Of a stretch of DNA of 42,278 nucleotides, positions 20,077 to 39,911 are shown piece by piece; within the stretch, counting starts at the first letter, position 1, and every line of letters starts with the position of its first letter. The notes beneath the pieces are model-generated. The model did no database searches. It saw nothing but the letters and a program-made list of their open reading frames with translations, and was not told where the DNA came from. Position numbers and translations under genes: made by a program. Origin of the DNA: a virus; IMG/VR virus record IMGVR_UViG_3300024343_000029, positions 1 through 42,278 of that record; one strand, 5' to 3'.

Positions 20077-20743
20077 CACTGGCGTATTGGACCGCTGGAT
20101 GGAAAATCATCGTAAGTTAGGTGGTCATGTGTTCCTTGTTCACGACACATATGCACTAGTTGGATCTCCTGAACAATACGTAACAAACCTATACGATAGT
20201 TTTCGTCAACTCTCCTTTGAAACAGTGAATGAATTTGTAGCAGCAGGTGTTACTGATAACACTATGCAACATCGTGACATCTTAGAAGATGCCAGTAAAA
20301 TACACTATCTAAGACAGCAGATAAGGGCTGGTAAGTTAGCGTTTCGTCCGCAGCTACTACACGAACCTTGGCGCAAACGCTGGCGTGTACATCCTGGTAG
20401 CGGACGTTATGCGGCTATGTGGATGGAAAATCCAACGGATTGGTTGCGTAGCATTTACATTTATTTTAACGAGCCTGGATTTGAGATGCCGACAGGTGCT
20501 ACGGCAATAGACTTGCGCAATCCCGCTGCCTTTATCAATGCTATAACTTTAACCGCGTCTGATATAGACTTTACTACTCACACTGCGTTCGAGCGTTCTG
20601 ACAGAGACACTGAGTGGCACCCTAATATTACAACTGATAAAGACTGGCAATTCTTGCGTTATAGCGAAGGCGAACATTTTCTTAACTATAAACAAGCATG
20701 GCGAGATACAGCCGTAGACTTGTGGTTGTCATTGAATAGATAA
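20066..20743 (+). CDS. Hypothetical 225-residue protein
   Basis: Overlaps the upstream SGNH-like gene by 11 bases. Soluble, rich in Trp, Arg and His: notable segments are GGHVFLVHDTYALVGSPEQY, HEPWRKRWRVHPGSGRYAAM and ENPTDWLRSIYIYFNEPGF. The paired short-overlap arrangement suggests it works with the upstream gene. No family recognised. Its last 15 bases overlap the tail of the convergent oxygenase gene, and no terminator is visible between them. Confidence 0.5.
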   Translation: MEINTGVLDRWMENHRKLGGHVFLVHDTYALVGSPEQYVTNLYDSFRQLSFETVNEFVAAGVTDNTMQHRDILEDASKIHYLRQQIRAGKLAFRPQLLHEPWRKRWRVHPGSGRYAAMWMENPTDWLRSIYIYFNEPGFEMPTGATAIDLRNPAAFINAITLTASDIDFTTHTAFERSDRDTEWHPNITTDKDWQFLRYSEGEHFLNYKQAWRDTAVDLWLSLNR

Positions 20744-21376
20744 GTTACTGGACACATATGCATACATATCCCAGCAAATTTCAGCATTAATAACTAACCA
20801 TAAACTATGTCTATCTGGATTAGTAAACGCATTGAAAAGGGTATGTTCAAGAGTTGTGTTAATAGCATATAGGCTACCATTATTCCAATTTAATGTTTTA
20901 TCCTCAATCATAAAGCGGAACCATGGTGCTTCTGTATTTGCTAGTGGCATAATAAGCCTAAATGTTTTTTGGGTTGCTTTTTGACTATCGCGATGAGGTG
21001 GAAAATATCCGCCAGGAGGAACCCTTAGAATATGTGTACGATTTATCCATGGAAGTATAGGATCAAGTAATTCTTGTAAGTCTGTACACGCATGGTATAC
21101 TGGGGTAGGAACAACAAAGTCACTCTCATTCCAGTTTGTTCCGTGTGTGTTATTCCACTCTAATAGACTACTAATAGCTGGGCCAGGTTTGTTGACGCCA
21201 TCTTCGTTAAGTATACACAATCCTTGGCGAGGTATCCAATGTTTAAACTCATTGTATTGATACCATTTGTCGTCAAACTGTTTTAGATCATTAAGTAATC
21301 TAGTTGTGTTGACAGTCTTACTAATGCGTATTTGATTGCCAAATTGAAATATGCTCTGGGCTGTTACTTCTTCCAT
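20729..21376 (-). CDS. 2OG-Fe(II) oxygenase, aspartyl/asparaginyl beta-hydroxylase-like
   Basis: A 215-residue protein on the minus strand. The facial triad is visible: PPGGYFPPHRDS (His128, Asp130) and LEHTLFNAF (His178), followed by DRHSLWLVIN (Arg189, the likely 2-oxoglutarate ligand). This order fits the double-stranded beta-helix fold of Asp/Asn hydroxylase-like oxygenases. The start at 21376 was chosen for its TGAGGATAAC ribosome site, identical to that of the clamp loader gene; an in-frame upstream ATG at 21418 lacks support. 2OG oxygenases are frequent in marine phages; the substrate is unknown. It needs Fe(II), which fits the nearby iron genes. Confidence 0.68.
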   Translation of the reverse strand: MEEVTAQSIFQFGNQIRISKTVNTTRLLNDLKQFDDKWYQYNEFKHWIPRQGLCILNEDGVNKPGPAISSLLEWNNTHGTNWNESDFVVPTPVYHACTDLQELLDPILPWINRTHILRVPPGGYFPPHRDSQKATQKTFRLIMPLANTEAPWFRFMIEDKTLNWNNGSLYAINTTLEHTLFNAFTNPDRHSLWLVINAEICWDMYAYVSSNLSIQ

Positions 21377-25873: not shown

Positions 25874-26413
25874 ATGAAACATAAATATCAACCAACGAAG
25901 TATATTAGAACAGTGCCTGACTATCCAGTGGCAGGCGTAAACTTTTACGACATGAACAGTCTGTTTGCCAGCGAAATGTGGGGATGTATCGTAGAACAAA
26001 TAGCCAGTGCTATGGAATACGGCAGTGTGTTTGAACACGTTACACACATCGTGGGTATTGAGAGCCGCGGCTTTGTTGTGGGTCAAGCACTAGCTAGTGA
26101 AATGCTGAAACCATTTGTAATGGTGCGCAAAGCTGGCAGCAAGTATCCTGGAAAGCTGTTAACTGAAAGTTATTACACTGAATACAGCACTGACGCACTA
26201 ACGCTACAAGAGGGCATCTTAGGGCATACTAGCCGTGTTCTTATTGCTGATGACTTAATTGCCACTGGTGGAAGTATGCTGGCAACTAAACGTCTTGTAG
26301 AACAAACTGGTGCCAAAGTAGTTGGCGGAACAGCAGTTATTAACTTAAAATACTTAAATAGTGTAGAATTAGAAAATATGCACCTAGTGTGCGGGGAGGA
26401 TGTATTGCGATGA
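25874..26413 (+). CDS. apt: Adenine phosphoribosyltransferase
   Basis: A 179-residue type I PRTase. The N-terminal PDYPVAGVNFYDMNSLFA matches the Apt substrate loop (PDFPxxGIxFxD). IVGIESRGFVVGQALASEM and the PRPP-binding motif VLIADDLIATGGSML (adjacent Asp-Asp, then TGGS) are intact, as is the flexible-loop region KLLTESYYTEYSTD. It converts adenine and PRPP to AMP, recycling purine bases during phage replication. Length matches bacterial Apt. It has no clear ribosome site and is probably expressed from the upstream unit; its stop overlaps the iscA-like start (ATGA). Confidence 0.9.
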   Translation: MKHKYQPTKYIRTVPDYPVAGVNFYDMNSLFASEMWGCIVEQIASAMEYGSVFEHVTHIVGIESRGFVVGQALASEMLKPFVMVRKAGSKYPGKLLTESYYTEYSTDALTLQEGILGHTSRVLIADDLIATGGSMLATKRLVEQTGAKVVGGTAVINLKYLNSVELENMHLVCGEDVLR

Positions 26414-26784
26414 TTAAAATTAGTCCAGAAGCAGAGACACATTTAAAAGCTATTCAAGATAGTGAAGGCAAGCTACCTAAACTAAGCGTTGCTGGTGGCG
26501 GGTGTGCTGGCTTCAAATATGTATGGGATTTGATTACAGAGGAACAGATTGATGAAATGGCAGACGAAGTTATTACTTTGGGCAATGGTGGCACTTTTGT
26601 GTTGGATGGTTACAGTCTCATGTTCTTATTCGGCATGGAACTTACACTTAACAAAGGTGTGTTTGGCACTACGCTAGAGATCAACAATCCGCAAGCATCA
26701 GCAGGATGCGGGTGTGGTGAAAGTGTTAACTTTGACATGGACAAAGTGTCAGCCAACCAGGACAGTTTTCAAATTCCAGAATAA
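26410..26784 (+). CDS. A-type iron-sulfur carrier (IscA/HesB family)
   Basis: A 124-residue protein (start 26410, ribosome site GGGGAGGA at about 26393-26400). The three conserved cysteines of A-type carriers are present: Cys32 in VAGGGCAGFKY, and Cys100 and Cys102 in SAGCGCGESVNF. It would bind Fe or a [2Fe-2S]/[4Fe-4S] cluster and pass it to apo-proteins, such as the FdxA ferredoxin and the radical SAM enzyme in this window. Slightly longer than IscA (107). Coupled to apt by ATGA. It ends the unit; the MazG promoter follows. Confidence 0.88.
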   Translation: MIKISPEAETHLKAIQDSEGKLPKLSVAGGGCAGFKYVWDLITEEQIDEMADEVITLGNGGTFVLDGYSLMFLFGMELTLNKGVFGTTLEINNPQASAGCGCGESVNFDMDKVSANQDSFQIPE

Positions 26785-34343: not shown

Positions 34344-35429
34344 ATGTTAAAAAGTTTCTTTTGGACTAAGGATCAGTTCTTATACGCATGGCTGATGTTA
34401 ACATGGTTGTTATTCATTGGTTGGTATAACGTTGAAATCCTTGTCTATTATAACGCTTGGAACAGAGAGTTCTATGACGCTATCCAAACACTACAAGAAG
34501 ACGCATTCTGGGAATTACTATGGGGATGGGACACTAGACGGTTCTGGGATTTCTTATGGTTAAACTTGGATAGCGAAATGATGGTTCCAAGTTTTCTGGA
34601 AATTATCGTACTATATACACCAATGGCTGTTTATGCTACTTGGCAAACCCAACGCTATACATTCCACTGGCGTGAAGCGAATACTTACTACTATCTACGC
34701 CGTTGGGAAAATTCAACTGCACAGATTGAAGGTGGAAGTCAGCGTATTCAAGAAGATTTGATGATCTTTGGTAAAACATTACAGGGTCTATTCAGTGGCT
34801 TTGTTAATAAAATTTTTGTTCTAGCAGCATTCTTACCAGTGCTGTGGAATTTGAGTGAGGGCTTACCAGTTTGGGATGACAAAATCATTCCTGGCTTCCT
34901 AGTCTGGGTAGCACTTACTCTATCACTTGGTGGCACACTACTATCATTCTTACTGGGCTTGAAGTTGCCTGGGCTGGAATATAACAACCAAGTTGTTGAG
35001 GCTAAATTTCGTAAACAACTTGTACACAGTGAGGACGATTTTAGCAAGCGTATGACAGCAGACTTATTTCCAATGTTTGCTTCAATTAAACGTAACTACT
35101 ATCGCTTGTTCAACTGGTACATGGGATTTGGCGTATGGCAAACAGCATTCGGTATGATTGCTGGTAACGTTGCACTAGTGGTACTTGCTCCAAGTTACTT
35201 TGCACAGTTAGTCACTTTCGGTGTGCTAATTCAAGTGCTAAATGCGTTTGGGCGTGTTGAAGGCGCACTGACGTATTTTATTGACCGTTGGACGACAATC
35301 GTTGACTTCCAGTCAGTCATTAAGCGTTTACGAGAATTTAACCGTGCGCTAGACGAGGCAGAAGCTAACCCTACCCCCGTAACTACAGCTAAAGCCAAGA
35401 CAACACGCAGTCGTAAACCAAAACAATAA
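34344..35429 (+). CDS. sbmA: SbmA/BacA-family peptide transporter
   Basis: A 361-residue integral membrane protein, clearly homologous to SbmA/BacA. Conserved segments: NREFYDAIQTL (E. coli NAWYAPFYDLIQTAL), QRIQEDLMIFGKTLQGL (QRVQEDTMRFASTLENM), IKLPGLE-like GLKLPGLEYNNQVVEAKFRKQL, SEDD, SIKRNYYRLFNWYM and YFIDRWTTIVDFQSVIKRL. It lacks roughly the first 45 residues of the 406-residue E. coli protein (the first helix) and has a basic C-terminal tail. SbmA imports peptides, such as proline-rich antimicrobial peptides and microcins, using the proton gradient. CGGAG site; end of the envelope operon. Confidence 0.92.
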   Translation: MLKSFFWTKDQFLYAWLMLTWLLFIGWYNVEILVYYNAWNREFYDAIQTLQEDAFWELLWGWDTRRFWDFLWLNLDSEMMVPSFLEIIVLYTPMAVYATWQTQRYTFHWREANTYYYLRRWENSTAQIEGGSQRIQEDLMIFGKTLQGLFSGFVNKIFVLAAFLPVLWNLSEGLPVWDDKIIPGFLVWVALTLSLGGTLLSFLLGLKLPGLEYNNQVVEAKFRKQLVHSEDDFSKRMTADLFPMFASIKRNYYRLFNWYMGFGVWQTAFGMIAGNVALVVLAPSYFAQLVTFGVLIQVLNAFGRVEGALTYFIDRWTTIVDFQSVIKRLREFNRALDEAEANPTPVTTAKAKTTRSRKPKQ

Positions 35430-37116: not shown

Positions 37117-37266
37117 ATGTTGAACAGAAGATATCAAATCTATCTGTCAAAGTTGCGCAAAGCAAATCGACTACAACGAAAAGCAACTAGTAACATTGAC
37201 TCAAAAAGAAACGCTATCATGGTGAGTTACCTTAACTCAATACGTGGCAAAGGCAAAAAGAAATAA
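37117..37266 (+). CDS. Small basic protein (49 residues)
   Basis: An AGGGGGG site lies upstream of ATG 37117, although its spacing of about 9-15 bases is loose. The product is strongly basic (LNRRYQIYLSKLRKANRLQR; SIRGKGKKK) and helical, so nucleic-acid binding is likely. Its stop codon is part of the terminator stem at 37261. It is the last plus-strand gene before the minus-strand cassette. Confidence 0.58.
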   Translation: MLNRRYQIYLSKLRKANRLQRKATSNIDSKRNAIMVSYLNSIRGKGKKK

Positions 37267-37284
37267 GGGCTTCGGCCCTTATTT
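37261..37284. terminator. Bidirectional rho-independent terminator
   Basis: A perfect 10-bp stem AAATAAGGGC / GCCCTTATTT with a TTCG tetraloop. T runs follow on both strands (TTTTT on plus; CTTTTT after reading minus). It separates the converging plus-strand unit and the minus-strand carrier-protein cassette. Confidence 0.95.
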
Positions 37285-38361
37285 TTATGGTTTGAAGAAT
37301 TCGTGAATTATTTTAGATCTAAATAATTCAGTGATAATAAAGTGATTATCCTTGGTCATAAGTGTGGGTTCCTGAAATTTTATATTCAGATTGTCAATAT
37401 CGTGTTCCAGATAGTCTATATGATTTTTCATAAATCTATCGTTTACATGATAATAGATTTGTATTTGAATATTAGGATTTTTTCTTGCTATGCTGTTTAT
37501 AGAAATATGATGGTCTTCAAAAATATTAGAATATTTTAGTGATCTCGTCCACATCACAAATTCCATGCCCGCCAATCCGCGTGTATTATTATTATACAAA
37601 TAATCACTATCCACTGTAGTCACGGGGCTTATTAAAAATATCTTCCTTGCGTATATCTTCTCTGCCAACATTGTTGCACTGTGGCCAGTTTTACAATCAC
37701 TTAAAATATAGTATTCAGAGTCTGGAAATCTATTTTTAATCCAATTCACTAATTTATCTATACTATCAATCTCTGAATTGATTCCACCGTACATTACTGA
37801 CGGCATCAATATAGGATTGTCATAGGATCTTCGTATATCTTCACATACGCCTACATAGTTATATTCTAAAAATACGTCATGCTCAGGGTTACCTGGTTTG
37901 TTACCTTCATTCCCAAGTGTGGATAATACATTAAATTGCGGGTGTATATACAACTGGTCGCTATTATTTTCAATAGATGCGAGGGTTCTTGCCCAGTGAC
38001 CATTATGGGAAATAACTATCAATGTTCGTTTCTTTTTTCTATCTCTTACTAAGATGTCACCATCATAATATGATTCCATGCCTGGCCACAGTTCATTAAA
38101 CCTGTCCATAGAAAATTTTGATTTTATATTTTTTAGATCTGAAATATTATCAATGGATTTTAGTAAATACTCTGCATGTTTGCTATTCTTACCATGATCA
38201 GGAAGATTTGCAATTTCAATCATTGATCTTAGTTGATATAATCGTAAACTATCAGCAGAATCCTCTAAATTCCATTCACGTGATTCTAACTCTAGATCGT
38301 ACTCTGTTTTTAGTCCGTCTGGTCCACTGTATTTAAATTCTATAGATTTTAATTTACTCAT
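37285..38361 (-). CDS. Alpha/beta-hydrolase-fold protein with predicted Cys nucleophile
   Basis: A 358-residue protein, last gene of the carrier-protein cassette. LIVISHNGHWARTLAS may be an early strand and oxyanion loop. YYILSDCKTGHSATMLAEKI (about 217-236) has the strand-elbow-helix shape, with Cys223 at the small-x-nucleophile-x-small position (Ser228 is the alternative). IQIYYHVNDRFMKNH (Asp308 candidate) and LMTKDNHFIITELF (His340) complete an Asp/His pair in the expected order. A thioesterase or acyltransferase on the neighbouring ACP is the natural reading. It overlaps the ACP gene by 8 bases. AT-rich. Confidence 0.6.
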   Translation of the reverse strand: MSKLKSIEFKYSGPDGLKTEYDLELESREWNLEDSADSLRLYQLRSMIEIANLPDHGKNSKHAEYLLKSIDNISDLKNIKSKFSMDRFNELWPGMESYYDGDILVRDRKKKRTLIVISHNGHWARTLASIENNSDQLYIHPQFNVLSTLGNEGNKPGNPEHDVFLEYNYVGVCEDIRRSYDNPILMPSVMYGGINSEIDSIDKLVNWIKNRFPDSEYYILSDCKTGHSATMLAEKIYARKIFLISPVTTVDSDYLYNNNTRGLAGMEFVMWTRSLKYSNIFEDHHISINSIARKNPNIQIQIYYHVNDRFMKNHIDYLEHDIDNLNIKFQEPTLMTKDNHFIITELFRSKIIHEFFKP

Positions 38362-38602
38362 TAGGTAGATTTTTTGTAATAAATGTCCATAGCTGTTTAA
38401 GATCAGTCAGGTCACTATTATCAATAGTAGGGAGATATAGTCCTGGAATGCTATCCTCTATTTCCATAAGCATTTCAATTAATGAGAGGCTATCAACATT
38501 AAAATCACTGAAAGGCCTACCACTCATTATATCATCTTCTGTTATCTCTATATTGTTTAATTCATTACATACTTCGATTATCTTTTCGGTAACTAAATCC
38601 AT
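38354..38602 (-). CDS. Acyl (or peptidyl) carrier protein
   Basis: An 82-residue acidic four-helix protein. The phosphopantetheine site is FNVDSLSLIEMLMEIED, with Ser38 in the D-S-L motif (Asp37, Leu39), and helix 2 acidic residues follow as in ACPs. A good AGGAG ribosome site precedes ATG 38602. It would be activated by the AcpS-type gene at the head of the operon and carry an acyl or aminoacyl thioester. Whether it works with fatty acyl or amino acid groups cannot be told. Confidence 0.85.
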   Translation of the reverse strand: MDLVTEKIIEVCNELNNIEITEDDIMSGRPFSDFNVDSLSLIEMLMEIEDSIPGLYLPTIDNSDLTDLKQLWTFITKNLPNE

Positions 38603-38611
38603 ATTATACTC

Positions 38612-39517
38612 CTAATATCCAAATTCATTTTCTTTGACATGCTCAAAAAATGGTGCCACATTGAAATCCTGTGTAACTCTGCCACGTCGCTCACTCAATG
38701 GATCTGGTATACCAACATCCTTATCAGAAATCCAGTTTGTTAATTTAATCCATCTACCACGTGTTATAGTCCTTGCACCATATTCTAACGGGAACAGCAC
38801 AGTGTTTTGTTCTTTATTCATTGCGTACCCGCTTTTTTCTTTGAATTCCCATATATAATCTTCTGATATGTTAAATTGAGTGGCACATAGTGATACAAGT
38901 TCTTTCATTGTGATGGCTTTACTATCATCTTCCATATATCTTCCTATCTGGCCTACATTTTTAATACGTATAAGAATATCCTTAACATCGTGTGTATCAA
39001 CCAAATGTAATAATCGAGCGGGTGCTTCTTCATTTATACCACTTGCGATAATCGTTCCTGTTTCAGTACGAACATTATTCTTAATCAAATTTGAAAATGC
39101 TTGTAACTTTTTCTTGGCACATCGCATTTCATCTATTGCTTCGTACCAGTCATCATTATCCACACCATTCATGCTAATGTATACTACGTTCAATCCATAA
39201 TCCATTAACATTTTAAGATATTTCTCATGTGATAGTCTTAGACCATTGGTAAGTAATCCCATCCTGTGTCCATTATCTTTTATCGCCTTAATAAATTCTG
39301 GAAGCTGCCGGTTCATAGTTGGTTCTGCCCCTATAAGTCTTATAGTAATAGGAGCGGGAAGTCTGGACAAGAAATCTTTAAATCTTTCTAAATCCATATC
39401 TGGATGATCTCTGTTAGGTATGTAGCAGTTTTTACATGTCATGTTACATTTATGTGTTATGTCTGCTATAATAACCTGATAATAATTATTTTCTGGCGAA
39501 ACTTCATTGTATGTCAT
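38612..39517 (-). CDS. Radical SAM enzyme
   Basis: A 301-residue protein with the canonical cluster motif ITHKCNMTCKNCY (Cys24, Cys28, Cys31), followed by ITIRLIGAEPTMNRQL (GGEP-like SAM loop), MGLLTNGLRL and VYISMNGVDND, as in MoaA/PqqE-type radical SAM proteins. There is no obvious SPASM cysteine cluster at the C-terminus. It has no ribosome site, but a late-type box GATAAATA ends 5 nt before its ATG. In this operon it probably modifies a carrier-bound or released substrate. It would need [4Fe-4S] supply. Confidence 0.85.
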   Translation of the reverse strand: MTYNEVSPENNYYQVIIADITHKCNMTCKNCYIPNRDHPDMDLERFKDFLSRLPAPITIRLIGAEPTMNRQLPEFIKAIKDNGHRMGLLTNGLRLSHEKYLKMLMDYGLNVVYISMNGVDNDDWYEAIDEMRCAKKKLQAFSNLIKNNVRTETGTIIASGINEEAPARLLHLVDTHDVKDILIRIKNVGQIGRYMEDDSKAITMKELVSLCATQFNISEDYIWEFKEKSGYAMNKEQNTVLFPLEYGARTITRGRWIKLTNWISDKDVGIPDPLSERRGRVTQDFNVAPFFEHVKENEFGY

Positions 39518-39521
39518 ATTA

Positions 39522-39911
39522 TTATTTATCTTTCGTATTTTCCACTATAACAAACGCTATCACATGTGTAAGTTCGTCACTGACACTCAGGTGTGTTATC
39601 TTATTATTTAATAGTCCACTTTGGTGTATTTTTTCTGAAAATCTAACATAGGGTTTGCCGCCATCTGATGTGTATCCTATGTCGCATGGAGAAAATGGCG
39701 TTGTAAAACCAGTACCATATGCCTTAACAACTGCTTCCTTTACAGCCCAGCATTTAGAAAGATATTTTACCCTATCATGTTTTTTTATGTATATGGCGTA
39801 TTCGTCATTAGAAAGTATACGTGCTGCAAACGCATTACCACGTCTACTATAGATCTTGTGTATACGATCAACCAGAACTATGTCTACTCCTGTGCCATGT
39901 ATAGACATCAT
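39522..39911 (-). CDS. AcpS-type 4'-phosphopantetheinyl transferase
   Basis: A 129-residue protein of AcpS length. Motif 1 is HGTGVDIVLVDRI (Asp10 magnesium ligand), and motif 3 is KCWAVKEAVVKAYG (Glu59, Lys62/63), both signature regions of group I PPTases; a downstream FSPCDIGYTSDGGKP and HLSVSDELTHVIAFVIVE are also typical. It transfers phosphopantetheine from CoA to Ser38 of the ACP encoded two genes downstream. Start 39911 (or 39908) is preceded by GGAGGAAT. First gene of the minus-strand cassette. Confidence 0.88.
   Translation of the reverse strand: MMSIHGTGVDIVLVDRIHKIYSRRGNAFAARILSNDEYAIYIKKHDRVKYLSKCWAVKEAVVKAYGTGFTTPFSPCDIGYTSDGGKPYVRFSEKIHQSGLLNNKITHLSVSDELTHVIAFVIVENTKDK
39523..39530 (-). 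promoter_or_regulatory. T4-type late promoter box, 5 nt before an ATG
   Basis: Read on the minus strand, GATAAATA overlaps the AcpS-like gene's stop and ends exactly 5 nt before the radical SAM ATG (39517). No Shine-Dalgarno intervenes. Confidence 0.45.

Follow-up and report, generated by a model that had tools for sequence, protein, structure and literature searches.

A carrier-protein gene cassette in a probable jumbo-phage fragment and its possible part in a type II acyl pathway

Genes resembling those for acyl carrier proteins (ACPs) are found in several dozen isolate phage records, and phage ACP genes have so far been listed as scattered auxiliary genes without a known role. A 2023 review counted an ACP in 2 of 153 cyanophages and a tryptophan halogenase in 20 (PMC10452541), and the Prochlorococcus phages P-HM1 and P-HM2 were reported to encode an ACP and its transferase (Sullivan et al. 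2010; PMC3037559). What a phage might do with a carrier protein is a question raised again by the IMG/VR virus record IMGVR_UViG_3300024343_000029, a record of 42 kb (the window). Four tightly packed genes on its (-) strand, at 37285-39911, encode an AcpS-type 4'-phosphopantetheinyl transferase, a radical SAM enzyme (rSAM), an ACP and a predicted alpha/beta hydrolase (HYD). We consider that this cassette is probably, though far from certainly, part of a phage-encoded type II pathway, that is, one built on a free-standing carrier protein, with HYD as its thioesterase or acyltransferase.

The four open reading frames were located as the first-pass annotation had described them, and the residues it had singled out in AcpS, rSAM and ACP were confirmed in the sequence. 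AcpS (39522-39911, (-), 129 aa) begins with an ATG at 39911 preceded by GGAGG, scores 87.6 bits against TIGR00516 (cut-off 59.8) and 56 bits against PF01648 (cut-off 25), and has the Mg2+ ligands Asp10 and Glu59 as well as a WxxKEA motif. Its relatives in jumbo-phage contigs are 48-51% identical. The rSAM (38612-39517, (-), 301 aa) matches PF04055 with an E-value of 2.6e-17, and judged by curated models the identities of both enzymes are secure. In an alignment of rSAM relatives the only invariant cysteines are the three of the CxxxCxxC motif (Cys24, Cys28 and Cys31). The ACP (38354-38602, (-), 82 aa) is acidic (pI 4.05) and carries Ser38 within the DSL of VDSLS. Its match to PF00550 is weak, at 18.4 bits just under the cut-off of 20.8, and it matches an NCBIfam ACP model with an E-value of 2.4e-5; the genes in the same position at two related loci, L022 (44% identical) and L024 (39%), score above the PF00550 cut-off with 27.5 and 25 bits. 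Used as the sole query in viral contigs, the ACP, too short and divergent a protein for this purpose, gave no match.

HYD (37285-38361, (-), 358 aa) completes the set, the first 8 nt of its gene overlapping the end of the ACP gene; AcpS and rSAM are separated by 4 nt, and rSAM and ACP by 9 nt. A strong intrinsic terminator with a 10-bp stem and a T-run (37261-37284, (-)) closes the cassette, as had been noted earlier, and separates it from a convergent (+) open reading frame. The AT-richness also held up: the cassette has a G+C content of 33.6% against a window mean of 39.3% (sd 2.2), and segments of its length are here at their lowest in the record. The promoter proposed for the cassette did not stand out from chance, with 26 promoter-like sites in the region where 16.7 (sd 5.2) were expected.

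HYD could be assigned to no known family: searches of Pfam, PHROGs, NCBIfam, the sequences of the PDB and isolate phages all gave no match. Its AlphaFold2 model is of moderate confidence (pLDDT 71, pTM 0.77), and the best Foldseek matches of the model in the PDB are alpha/beta hydrolases (E 1.4e-5, probability 1.0), with modest TM-scores of about 0.3-0.5. Forty-seven structures were matched at E<=0.001, and the named ones are mostly alpha/beta hydrolases. Among these structural neighbors are the surfactin thioesterase SrfTE, the pikromycin thioesterase and a myristoyl-ACP thioesterase, but also many esterases, so that the predicted fold on its own is no proof of an ACP substrate. The triad that had been proposed, Cys223-Asp308-His340, is present and conserved: Asp308 and His340 align across all relatives compared, and the position of the nucleophile holds cysteine in the window, L022, L024 and the L126 group (SDCK or ADCK) and serine in another clade (ADSK). 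The two clades are linked by a profile match (probability 95%, E 2e-8). In these alignments, alternation of Cys and Ser at 223 beside a constant Asp and His is the pattern expected of a nucleophile, and HYD is accordingly predicted by model and alignment to be an alpha/beta hydrolase with a conserved Cys/Ser-Asp-His triad. Import of HYD from bacteria was considered and set aside on weak grounds, since the searches that found none in 289 genomes of the class of the bacterial locus L106, or in 9 rSAM-bearing bacterial genomes, were made without a positive control.

Recurrence elsewhere is what ties the four genes together. An rSAM profile found at least 167 related places in viral contigs, of which 80 were kept, and 12 loci in bacterial contigs and metagenome-assembled genomes (MAGs). 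An ACP gene directly follows rSAM in the window and in L022-L026, L029, L030, L033 and L036-L041, and in most of these loci a HYD homologue comes next; L063 and L095/L096 have an ACP in the vicinity of rSAM. Nine loci came back from a search with HYD alone, and every contig concerned also has rSAM and ACP; a HYD profile run over 29 contigs matched nine, every one with both; no Cys-type HYD was found outside such contigs. Loci found from AcpS (L126-L130 and L134) hold all four components inside 7.3 kb in another order, with ACP directly after rSAM, and HYD on the opposite strand; another radical SAM gene and an aminotransferase-like gene are interspersed. These copies are distant (AcpS 36-41% identical, rSAM about 35%, HYD 26-29% with E-values of 1e-34 to 1e-39), and in the rSAM tree, on which linkage to ACP requires about six changes, long branches set the group apart. 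Because the rSAM-ACP-HYD order recurs, and all four components are found together again in distant loci, though rearranged, a functional association of rSAM, ACP, HYD and AcpS is supported by the gene sequences compared, and chance clustering was ruled out.

The conserved synteny that had been anticipated in related phages was thus found for rSAM, ACP and HYD, and for the full set in its rearranged form, but AcpS is usually unlinked. In most relatives it is a separate gene away from rSAM, and in four contigs (G013, G011, G027 and G028), each of which also has an ACP, it is unlinked to the cassette; tight AcpS linkage is therefore, on the loci compared, a feature of the window's cassette. Parts of the cassette also appear to be exchanged, since L022 and L024 have rSAMs that are 95% identical but ACPs that are 44%, HYDs that are 33% and 2-oxoglutarate (2OG) oxygenases that are 32% identical. 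Such swapping, the low G+C content and the inverted orientation do no more than suggest the mobile cargo cassette envisaged in the first-pass annotation.

That annotation had also regarded the cassette as a self-contained pathway, which it probably is not. The window itself is probably a fragment of a T4-related jumbo phage, because its DNA polymerase shares 51% identity with the one in Sinorhizobium phage Phosso (469 kb) and 44-46% with those of other phages of 350-490 kb, and because many of its genes are shared, at 31-86% identity, with G013 (342 kb), G030 (127 kb) and other jumbo-phage contigs. In three of these relatives, genes for an acyl-AMP ligase and a FabF-like ketosynthase (KS) share one block (L161 8104-14551 in G013, L162 8844-13776 in G030 and L163 6574-12191 in G005). 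The G013 block, which was scanned in full, also holds a fatty acid desaturase and a flavoenzyme of the tryptophan halogenase family, and similar frames that look like halogenases can be seen in G030 and G005. A KS was found in 7 of 21 related contigs searched, and the Cys and His motifs are present in the four that were read. G013 holds three ACPs. With a KS, an acyl-AMP ligase, a flavin halogenase, desaturases and as many as three ACPs present in the jumbo relatives, we read the cassette as belonging to a phage-borne, ACP-dependent acyl pathway. Desaturase-like genes and a GNAT-like gene were also seen in the acyl-AMP ligase/KS blocks of jumbo-phage contigs.

A further partner, missing from the first-pass annotation though common beside rSAM relatives, is an Asp/Asn-beta-hydroxylase-like 2OG-Fe(II) oxygenase, the commonest rSAM neighbor (cluster 0; 68 of 94 loci). 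The window has one at 20732-21373 (-), outside the cassette operon, which scores 27.0 bits against PF05118 (cut-off 22.6) and matches the profile of the rSAM-neighbor oxygenases with an E-value of 8e-31. It is a candidate, and a likely one, for a functional partner of the cassette.

In the pathway that we favor, AcpS would place phosphopantetheine on Ser38 of the ACP, and the resulting thiol would be loaded with an acyl, possibly aminoacyl, group, either by host enzymes or by a ligase or KS whose gene lies elsewhere in the jumbo-phage genome. Either the bound group or its acceptor would undergo radical chemistry catalyzed by rSAM, the 2OG oxygenase would probably hydroxylate one or the other, and HYD would take the group onto Cys223 and then release it or hand it to the acceptor. 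The loading, the order of steps, the substrate and the product are what we infer here. As to the output, modification of a protein or surface structure is weakly favored over a free metabolite. The rSAM relatives without an ACP, which often adjoin tail-fiber genes, give a hint in this direction, as do five bacterial MAG loci (L103, L104, L106, L107 and L108) in which a giant protein, from the same family each time, is encoded a short way downstream of rSAM, with RTX repeats confirmed in L104, the member scanned; most of the five also have a GNAT and/or a 2OG oxygenase. The C-terminal tail of rSAM (38612-38700, (-); GRxTxDF..APF.EH.K.NE.GY), which ends in NE.GY and is conserved in phages and bacteria, is predicted with low confidence in an AlphaFold2 model with a pLDDT of 81 and is perhaps a docking peptide. 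A wider proposal is possible but doubtful: marine jumbo phages would own an ACP system comprising AcpS, several ACPs, acyl-AMP ligase, KS, flavin halogenase, desaturases, rSAM and a thioesterase-like transferase, which would make an unusual, perhaps halogenated, acyl group and attach it to virion fibers or to structures on the host surface, which would amount to a novel type of post-translational or surface modification by viruses.

Several observations weigh against the proposed pathway. Most rSAM relatives have no nearby ACP, and therefore the substrate of rSAM itself need not be bound to an ACP; in L027, L028, L031, L032, L034 and L035, moreover, rSAM and HYD occur without an intervening ACP. 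Among 26 rSAM contigs scored for both genes, AcpS was present in 5 of 13 with an ACP and in 0 of 13 without (Fisher p 0.02), a co-occurrence that is only suggestive, with p at 0.10 once near-duplicates are collapsed. HYD has no sequence match to any thioesterase family in Pfam or NCBIfam, and its likeness to them is at the level of the fold. Neither a KS nor an acyl-AMP ligase was found within the 42 kb window, though this is probably a fragment.

Other explanations were weighed against the same evidence. The cassette might remodel host membrane lipids, with rSAM acting on lipid acyl chains in the manner of the archaeal tetraether synthase, desaturases and an oxygenase assisting, and ACP and HYD shuttling acyl chains into lipids. 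The closest PDB structure to rSAM is indeed GDGT-MAS (7tol, TM 0.74), an archaeal lipid-modifying enzyme, desaturase-like genes turn up in the KS block as well as close to several rSAM relatives, and a membrane-bound O-acyltransferase (PF03062) lies beside rSAM in L110 (8788-11991) and L111. However, the GDGT-MAS match may reflect just the common radical SAM core, as MoaA comes second in both profile and structure matches; the score against the Tes equivalog NF045702 (53.8 bits against a cut-off of 450) rejects that assignment by far, and tail-fiber and RTX neighbors fit a membrane lipid poorly. We therefore regard lipid remodeling as unlikely. The TrsS equivalog (NF045646) was likewise rejected for rSAM, at 83.4 bits against a cut-off of 490. 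Also seen near rSAM in L110 was a haem-oxygenase-like iron enzyme (PF14518).

Service of ACP and AcpS in iron-sulfur (Fe-S) cluster building, with the genes placed near rSAM for its cluster need and HYD incidental, is suggested by a second ACP that directly follows HscB-like and ErpA/IscA-like genes in G013 (L142 3210-5364) and G030 (L144 4514-5637), and by an A-type Fe-S carrier (IscA/SufA/ErpA-like) in the window at 26389-26784 (+), which matches TIGR00049 with 59.4 bits, just above the cut-off. That second ACP nonetheless belongs to another subtype and shares 24% identity with the cassette ACP, which for its part is tied to HYD, a protein with no known Fe-S role, and no Fe-S genes adjoin the cassette; this account appears distinctly unlikely. 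Were the phage ACP instead to act on host ACP partners as a decoy or a regulator, serving counter-defense or host takeover rather than biosynthesis, the scatter of ACP genes over many isolate phages with no obvious pathway would make sense, but the conserved rSAM and HYD partners and the KS-ligase-halogenase block would be left unexplained, and we hold it to be very unlikely. It is most improbable of all that unrelated cargo genes gathered in a variable jumbo-phage region, as the low G+C content, inverted orientation and variable AcpS linkage might suggest, since the same set returns in distant, rearranged form, Cys-type HYD was never found without rSAM and ACP, and the ACP and HYD genes overlap.

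An ACP together with a phosphopantetheinyl transferase in a phage, a pair that the first-pass annotation could not place in a known system alongside a radical SAM enzyme, has a precedent in P-HM1 and P-HM2, which like the window encode both, and which also have Asn-beta-hydroxylase and taurine-dioxygenase genes (PMC3037559). In P-HM2, unlike the window, the ACP and transferase genes are about 22 kb apart, and in isolate phages no relatives of HYD, and none of rSAM above weak superfamily similarity, were found. A tblastn search of isolate phages with AcpS returned only four unannotated Firmicute records and missed P-HM2, and was hence insensitive. In the open-access literature, nothing relevant came up on a phage ACP combined with a radical SAM enzyme, and we found no report of an ACP together with this rSAM and hydrolase. 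The free-standing ACP, AcpS and thioesterase-like alpha/beta hydrolase, with the KS and acyl-AMP ligase of jumbo relatives, resemble type II fatty acid or polyketide synthases; however, rSAM is an unusual partner for these, the window has no KS, and no ketoreductase, dehydratase or malonyl transferase was identified among the genes read. With Tes/GDGT-MAS and MoaA, its best profile and structure matches, rSAM shares the radical SAM core, but it falls far below the equivalog cut-offs, has 301 aa and no extra invariant cysteines, and ends in a different tail. Flavin-dependent halogenases are known from phages, and one from a marine virus is attributed in the 2023 review to Gkotsi et al. 2019 (as cited in PMC10452541). 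The tryptophan-halogenase-family gene of G013 is linked to KS and acyl-AMP ligase, and the window has none.

RTX proteins are activated by acyl-ACP-dependent acyltransferases of the HlyC type. The bacterial rSAM loci resemble such systems in that giant RTX-family proteins are encoded downstream of a GNAT and a 2OG oxygenase; by Pfam, however, the GNAT is not HlyC, and the loci have no ACP. A recurrent module of ACP, activating enzyme, rSAM and a new alpha/beta hydrolase family, together with the KS-ligase-halogenase block of the relatives, would give phage ACPs a pathway. Carrier-protein use by phages becomes directly testable with a four-gene construct, and the cassette family may bring to light new radical SAM and halogenase chemistry that depends on ACPs.

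Elsewhere in the window, a 30-base element with TTGACA-N17-TATATT occurs in six (+) copies (12742, 14602, 16247, 39965, 40270 and 41950), where 0 were expected; these are apparently a family of sigma-70-like phage promoters. They were rejected as a cassette promoter, all being on the (+) strand and none lying upstream in the direction of the cassette. The window further encodes a 6-pyruvoyl-tetrahydropterin synthase/QueD-like protein (PF01242; 21412-22014, (+)) and an adenine phosphoribosyltransferase-like protein (25874-26413, (+)). An SbmA/BacA-like peptide transporter at 34344-35429 (+), which is unexpected for a phage, matches PF05992 with an E-value of 3e-76 and is 71% identical to the G030 copy.

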